Shown here one piece after another: positions 8,503-37,174 of a DNA stretch of 47,389 bases. The stretch covers positions 1 to 47,389 of the forward strand of contig JALRLK010000147.1 of NCBI GenBank assembly GCA_023254495.1, in the 5' to 3' direction. Source of the DNA: Marivivens sp. Lineage in GTDB: Bacteria; Pseudomonadota; Alphaproteobacteria; Rhodobacterales; Rhodobacteraceae. Each line of letters begins with the position of its first letter. Within the stretch, counting starts at the first letter, position 1. Position numbers and translations under genes: made by a program. The notes below the pieces were generated by a model. The model saw only the letters and a list, made by a program, of their open reading frames with translations. It was not told the origin of the DNA and ran no database searches.

Positions 8503-8936
8503 TTTCCCTCTCGCCGCGGGGGATGAGGTGGCGGGAACCGCGGCAACCGTGGACGTTTTATTCCCGAGGACCTGTGTTTACAGGTGGGCGCCAGATAATC
8601 AGGCCAGGGCCAGAACAGAGCCAGCTCCCTCGGATTTGCTTAAGGCCACTGGAATGCAACGCTTGGCACGAGAGGGGCAGAAACCCGCCATCGCCATAGG
8701 TAGGGCCGCGCTATCTCTGCTGCAAGATGGATTTCTGTCTCAATGGCACGAAAATAATAGAGCATGTGCTCCATAATGGATCAATATTGGCGGCCACCAA
8801 AAATAGAGCTTTAGTTCTAGAATAGGAACAATAGAACTATGCGGCCACATCTGCGGCGCCTCTGTTTCCCCTATCGCTCCAGTCTTTGGCAAAACCGCGG
8901 CCGATTGTGGGGGCTTTGGCGGTACTTTGATCGAGC

Positions 8937-8965
8937 TTGACCGATGTTCACGAAATGTTCATATC
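8937..8965 (+). promoter_or_regulatory. Predicted sigma-70 promoter of mmcB
   Basis: TTGACC (-35) and CATATC (-10) are separated by exactly 17 bases. The expected transcription start, about 7 bases after the -10 element, falls on or next to the ATG at 8972. No Shine-Dalgarno sequence precedes that ATG, so the transcript is probably leaderless. The LexA box lies within the spacer. Confidence 0.6.
8946..8960 (+). promoter_or_regulatory. LexA binding site (SOS box)
   Basis: GTTC-ACGAAAT-GTTC is an exact match to the alphaproteobacterial LexA motif GTTC-N7-GTTC. It sits between the -35 and -10 elements, the ideal place for a repressor, and the downstream gene is a known SOS-type gene in Caulobacter. 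Confidence 0.8.
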
Positions 8966-8971
8966 TGGGCC

Positions 8972-9436
8972 ATGTCCGATGTGCCCGATACCGAAGCCCT
9001 GCGCCCCGGCCAGCTCTTGGCGCGTGGGGTGTGCCGGCATCTTCTGAGCCATGATTTCGTGACGGTGGAAGAATTGGTGCCGACCACTGGCCTGCGTGTC
9101 GACGTGATGGGCCTTGGCCCAAAAGGCGAGATCTGGGTGATCGAGTGCAAATCAAGCCGCGCCGATTTCCAGTCGGACAACAAGTGGCAGGGCTATCTCG
9201 AATGGTGCGACCGCTTCTTCTGGGCGGTGGATGCAGATTTCCCGACCGACCTCCTCCCCGATGCCACGGGCCTAATCATGGCCGATGGCTATGGGGCCGA
9301 AATCCTGCGTATGGGGCCGGAAACGCCACTCGCCGGGGCGCGGCGCAAGGTGATGTTGCAGAAATTCGCCCGCCACGCGGCCCTGCGCCAGCACGCCGCC
9401 CGCGATCCGGCCTTCCGCTTTACTTCCGCTTGGTAA
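8972..9436 (+). CDS. mmcB: MmcB family DNA repair protein
   Basis: 154 residues, with the PD-(D/E)xK-type nuclease core of MmcB (DUF1052): LRVDVMGLGPKGEIWVIECKSSRADFQSDNKWQGYLEWCDRFFWAVD. The aspartate of RVDV and the ECK motif are plausible metal and catalytic residues. MmcB proteins are associated with mitomycin C resistance, and in Caulobacter the gene belongs to the SOS regulon; the biochemical activity is not well defined. The ATG at 8972 is chosen over the upstream tracked start because the promoter and LexA box end just before it. The 3' end overlaps the convergent DUF6324 gene by 17 bases. Confidence 0.88.
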   Translation: MSDVPDTEALRPGQLLARGVCRHLLSHDFVTVEELVPTTGLRVDVMGLGPKGEIWVIECKSSRADFQSDNKWQGYLEWCDRFFWAVDADFPTDLLPDATGLIMADGYGAEILRMGPETPLAGARRKVMLQKFARHAALRQHAARDPAFRFTSAW

Positions 9437-9614
9437 GGCTGCGCGCGGCCTGAGCGGCGGCGCGGATTTCCTCGGCGATTTCCTCGGCTTCCTCGGGGTC
9501 AAAGTCCATCGGGACTTCCAGCCCGCCCGCCTCGATGAAAAGCCGGACCATGCCGCTATCGGTCGGGCCGATCTGAAGATTGGCTTCGATGTCGCGTTCG
9601 GTGTTGATCCCCAT
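9420..9614 (-). CDS. DUF6324-like small protein
   Basis: 64 residues, acidic in the middle: NTERDIEANLQIGPTDSGMVRLFIEAGGLEVPMDFDPEEAEEIAEEIRAAAQAARSL. This pattern resembles the small Rhodobacteraceae family I know as DUF6324; the name is from memory and was not checked. It probably forms a short beta sheet followed by a helix (EEAEEIAEEIRAAAQAA). No function is known. It runs convergent to mmcB and diverges from the GNAT gene, with about 100 bp between the two starts. Confidence 0.75.
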   Translation of the reverse strand: MGINTERDIEANLQIGPTDSGMVRLFIEAGGLEVPMDFDPEEAEEIAEEIRAAAQAARSLTKRK

Positions 9615-37042: not shown

Positions 37043-37071
37043 TTGACCTTGGGCCAGTGCAGGAGTATGCC
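37043..37071 (+). promoter_or_regulatory. Predicted metZ promoter
   Basis: TTGACC and TATGCC are separated by exactly 17 bases. The expected start of transcription, about 7 bases after the -10, falls at or just before base 37078, where the first stem of the SAM-II riboswitch begins. Confidence 0.6.
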
Positions 37072-37077
37072 CCAAGC

Positions 37078-37130
37078 CGTGGCGATTTGAACCGGATTGC
37101 GGGCCACGTTAAACATTCCGCTAAATAGGA
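37078..37130 (+). promoter_or_regulatory. SAM-II riboswitch (metA motif)
   Basis: CGTGGC and GCCACG form the 6-bp P1 stem, enclosing GATTTGAACCGGATTGCGG. It is followed by the conserved GTTAAAC and CCGCTAAATAGG, which make the pseudoknot that binds S-adenosylmethionine. This matches the SAM-II aptamer found before methionine genes in alphaproteobacteria. An intrinsic terminator follows 12 bases later, so control is probably by transcription attenuation when SAM is high. Confidence 0.92.
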
Positions 37131-37142
37131 AACGGGCTTTGG

Positions 37143-37174
37143 CCCCGATACCTTGTCCGGTGTCGGGGTTTTTT
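37143..37174 (+). terminator. Intrinsic terminator in the metZ leader
   Basis: CCCCGATACC and GGTGTCGGGG form a 10-bp stem with one mismatch (wobble) around a 6-nt loop, followed by six T. It lies between the riboswitch and the metZ start, so it is the likely expression platform. Confidence 0.88.

Follow-up and report, generated by a model that had tools for sequence, protein, structure and literature searches.

A putative LexA operator inside the mmcB promoter of a Marivivens genome, with a predicted leaderless start conserved in Rhodobacteraceae

The window (the whole analysed stretch of 47,389 nt) is contig 51 of a MAG that belongs to the Marivivens group (Rhodobacteraceae), measures 2.39 Mb, and is 84% complete. 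Its mmcB gene is coded on the plus strand at 8972-9436, and the product of 154 aa is an MmcB-like PD-(D/E)XK family protein, recognized by the profile PF06319 with 153.7 bits against a gathering cut-off of 22 (E=3.8e-45). A DUF6324 gene on the minus strand (9420-9614) is convergent with mmcB and overlaps its 3' end; a DUF6324 match adjoins mmcB in 98 of 110 loci of relatives. In the intergenic region before mmcB, a probable 6S RNA gene is located at 8531-8686 on the minus strand. This candidate reached 42.6 bits with RF00013 in a search of 472 bases (gathering score 46.4, E=2.3e-7), and in 26 of 80 relatives its end segment is conserved at varying distances of up to 700 nt before mmcB. A SAM_alpha riboswitch (RF00521) was identified above the gathering score at 37069-37145.

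Upstream of mmcB and on the same strand, the -35 element TTGACC (8937-8942) is separated by a 17-nt spacer from the -10 element CATATC (8960-8965). Within the spacer lies the putative LexA operator GTTCACGAAATGTTC at 8946-8960, an exact GTTC-N7-GTTC that overlaps the first base of the -10 element. The ATG of mmcB (8972-8974) stands 6 nt past the -10 element, and its A at 8972 is the predicted transcription +1. No Shine-Dalgarno (SD) sequence precedes the gene, and the anti-SD energy of the 17-nt stretch whose end lies 3 nt ahead of the ATG is -0.9 kcal/mol, calculated, like the other pairing energies given here, with an assumed anti-SD sequence. The initial annotation had placed an exact box in the spacer of a TTGACC-N17-CATATC promoter lacking an SD, and all these elements were found there. 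A consensus promoter scan of the window revealed no site at 8937-8965, because the -10 element is without the final T, which is retained by 84% of relatives (consensus CAtatT, with the A in 99%). The mmcB promoter of the window may be weak or of slightly different register.

The bare GTTC-N7-GTTC motif is not significant in the window, with three occurrences against 1.2 expected and as many in 16 of 100 shuffles, nor is it enriched genome-wide, with 63 occurrences against 92 for the backward control; its count was therefore dropped as evidence. The arrangement as a whole is significant because it is conserved in relatives: the strict pattern TTG-N5-TGTTC-N6-TGTTCA-N9..12-ATG has exactly one site per genome in 60 of 200 Rhodobacteraceae genomes and none as backward control, and all 30 matches that were fetched belong to mmcB. 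A promoter profile computed from relatives gave a score of 38.2 to the mmcB site and 2.1 to the next best site in the window, the mmcB site being itself one of the 122 sequences that trained the profile.

The arrangement, whose search in relatives had been proposed with the annotation, is common to two sets of mmcB upstream regions, one from 80 close orthologs and one from 30 orthologs spread over different genera. In the genus-spread set, the box is present with at most one mismatch in 28 of 30, and the ATG lies 11 or 12 nt behind it in 26 of those 28. Pooling gave 122 distinct Rhodobacteraceae promoters, in which the ATG follows the box after 11 nt in 88 cases and after 12 nt in 30 (118 of 122; sd 0.63 nt). 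The ATG used was the first one in frame with a minimum gap of 8 nt to the box, a lower limit that does not force the values 11-12. By comparison, the sd is 9.5 nt for the distance from the ATG to the conserved PGQLLARG motif. This indicates that the start codon is tied to the promoter and not to the protein domain. The box is flanked by the TTG of the -35 element, at the same box distance in 106 of the 122, and by a -10 element xAxxxT with the second-position A in 121 and the sixth-position T in 103. The -35 element and the -10 bases A and T fall outside the box and are conserved in their own right. Before the -35 element, the information content does not rise above background; it is high at CTTG (8936-8939 in the window), at the box, and at the -10 A and T, and low between the -10 element and the ATG. 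The predicted LexA operator inside the promoter is strongly supported by this conservation and by boxes of this type at the lexA and recA genes of relatives.

The lexA gene was not found in the 84%-complete MAG, and this absence is probably due to incompleteness, since three of four other genomes of the same genus have lexA. In a Rhodobacteraceae sample, lexA is present in 39 of 41 genomes and has GTTC-N7-GTTC boxes of its own; three lexA loci of the same genus have GTTCTACTCGTGTTC about 72 nt upstream. The recA gene of the MAG has an exact GTTC-N7-GTTC box close upstream. The recA and lexA promoters served as controls for the mmcB layout. Unlike at mmcB, their boxes are mostly 35-130 nt before the start (two of them more than 225 nt) and nearly always on the other strand. 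The regions before recA and lexA starts resemble normal leaders, with SD-like pairing in 28 of 31 lexA genes, the corresponding count for recA being biased because the recA start was chosen by its SD.

In mmcB orthologs, SD 4-mers in proper place were identified in 0 of 122. The mean anti-SD energy is -0.36, weaker than in shuffled sequences (-1.32), compared with -7.67 for lexA of Rhodobacteraceae, and the first 40 nt of the predicted message are less structured than shuffled. The -10 element ends 6-7 nt before the ATG, matching the normal start distance of RNA polymerase, and in about 87% a pyrimidine stands directly before the ATG, as at typical starts.

A looser pattern was matched also by recA- or lexA-divergent sites, a dnaE2, the upstream region of prfC, and chance sites, and it led to a second gene of the same layout, a PA0069-family radical SAM gene (NF033668, E=1.8e-149). 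Its orthologs in Rhodobacteraceae were gathered by protein profile, giving 29 loci; in 25 of these the ATG lies 11-13 nt behind a box, and an SD was found in 0 of 26. Relative to the box, the -35 TTG is mostly at minus 8 in the PA0069 gene and minus 9 in mmcB, the -10 bases A and T are at +16 and +20 instead of +15 and +19, and the ATG usually follows the box after a gap of 12 instead of 11. All three elements are thus one base further downstream in the PA0069 gene. As the -35 element, the -10 element, and the ATG slide together against the box, the ATG appears to be tied to the -10 element, that is to the predicted transcription start, and not to the box. This register shift is the best computational evidence for the ATG as transcript start and for its spacing not being a by-product of the operator. 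Together with the fixed distance between -10 element and ATG, the lack of an SD, and the pyrimidine before the A, it gives strong comparative support to the leaderless start suggested in the initial annotation, with the transcript start itself a prediction. With the same LexA box and a leaderless-looking promoter like that of mmcB, the PA0069-family radical SAM gene is a candidate SOS gene.

The MAG's own PA0069 gene (contig C58:20663-21521) has an exact LexA box with the ATG only 6 nt behind it and no clear -35 element. It lacks about 84 profile positions in the middle and is perhaps decaying or misassembled. Outside the mmcB and PA0069 set, two similar small proteins (TEKQxAYAR...PSSKQVxFAERIAR) are coded closely behind a LexA-like box; neither has an NCBIfam match, and one of them also has no Pfam match.

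In a class-wide sample, most alphaproteobacterial mmcB genes outside Rhodobacteraceae are without the layout. The exceptions are family f11, where three of three have it with a gap of 12, and family f4, where two of three have it with a gap of 9-10. Since these two families share it, the layout may be older than Rhodobacteraceae or may have arisen more than once. The strict pattern, searched in 241 genomes of the class, matched all four Rhodobacteraceae members and few others.

From these sequence comparisons, the mmcB promoter is very probably promoter and SOS operator in one, repressed through occlusion by LexA, released upon damage, and giving a leaderless transcript from 8972. LexA bound at 8946-8960 would cover the spacer together with the upstream edge of the -10 element and would block RNA polymerase. 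After DNA damage, RecA would trigger self-cleavage of LexA, and the promoter would fire. Transcription would start at 8972, the A of the ATG, to give an mRNA without leader, which would be translated from its 5'-terminal AUG by 70S-type initiation.

It is unlikely that the message is instead leadered, transcribed from a promoter farther upstream, with the LexA box acting as a roadblock in the 5' UTR and with SD-less translation of the kind common in alphaproteobacteria. The -10 element at 8960 is imperfect, and 75% of Caulobacter start sites are without SD, so a missing SD alone is no proof of leaderlessness (PMC4117421). A 5' UTR roadblock does not fit, however, with -35 and -10 elements kept at fixed spacing outside the box, with nothing else conserved just upstream, or with the PA0069 gene, where the ATG follows the -10 element and not the box. 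Very improbable is a wrong start codon, with translation from an upstream TTG or from a later in-frame codon, which would put the promoter within the gene or well ahead of it. The window does contain an in-frame ORF that opens with the TTG at 8927, but in 17 orthologs a stop closes this frame less than 35 nt before the ATG, which makes a longer protein impossible in those, and the distance between ATG and promoter is constant while the N-terminal part of the protein differs by many codons. Least probable is an unconstrained likeness that merely reflects recent common descent of the region: all compared mmcB genes are orthologs and mostly of one family, but flanking bases are at background while the elements are near-invariant across different genera, and the unrelated PA0069 gene has the same layout.

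For the promoter with overlapping operator and leaderless start, the initial annotation had also proposed that the repair protein can be made early under stress. This part is unsupported: normally growing Caulobacter translates its leaderless mRNAs no less well than its leadered ones (PMC4117421), and the timing of its SOS response is governed by the intrinsic strength of the promoter rather than by properties of the box or its distance to the gene (PMC12700426). Tightness seems a more plausible gain than earliness, and this is a guess, in which SD-less read-through transcripts would be poorly translated and the nuclease-like MmcB would stay off; against it, SD-less leadered messages are also well translated in Caulobacter (PMC4117421). 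More tentatively, and with some doubt, mmcB and the PA0069-family radical SAM gene could form a class of Rhodobacteraceae SOS genes whose start codon is locked into one unit with the LexA-controlled promoter, with translation as well as transcription dependent on the release of LexA. Read-through from upstream would then be poorly translated, because the message would have no ribosome site besides the 5' AUG, and a DNA-cutting enzyme would be kept off in undamaged cells.

If confirmed, the layout would be a family-wide and easily testable case in which damage control and leaderless translation are combined within one unit of 40 bases. The poorly characterised PA0069-family radical SAM gene would gain a candidate role in repair through the same control, and the layout would offer a clean natural set in which to ask why leaderless messages are retained by bacteria.

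LexA operators overlapping the -35/-10 region are a general type of SOS promoter, and the mmcB promoter would resemble them in repression by occlusion of RNA polymerase. It differs in its direct-repeat alphaproteobacterial box, which provides the first base of the -10 element and is followed by the ATG at the predicted +1. Leaderless messages in a context of DNA damage or of a repressor are represented by Deinococcus deserti, from which leaderless mRNAs have reportedly been described (a title cited in PMC8072749), and by the leaderless message of lambda cI; regulators and operators are different there. The Caulobacter crescentus SOS regulon is similar in including mmcB, in the GTTCN7GTTC type of box, and in control by LexA (PMC9578287, PMC12700426), and for Caulobacter mmcB both SOS control and a role against mitomycin C are already known (PMC9578287). 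In contrast to the layout described here, no report of a transcript start or of a conserved leaderless layout was found for that regulon in open-access literature, which also yielded no paper that maps the start of the mmcB transcript. A fixed LexA box with leaderless layout, family-wide at two genes, seems to be undescribed so far in the same literature. Leaderless mRNAs are common in alphaproteobacteria, with 375 in Caulobacter (PMC4117421) and 171 in Sinorhizobium (PMC3616915), and mmcB is similar to them in having its ATG at the predicted first transcribed base and no SD, but its layout is tied to a putative damage-controlled operator and is family-wide at two genes.
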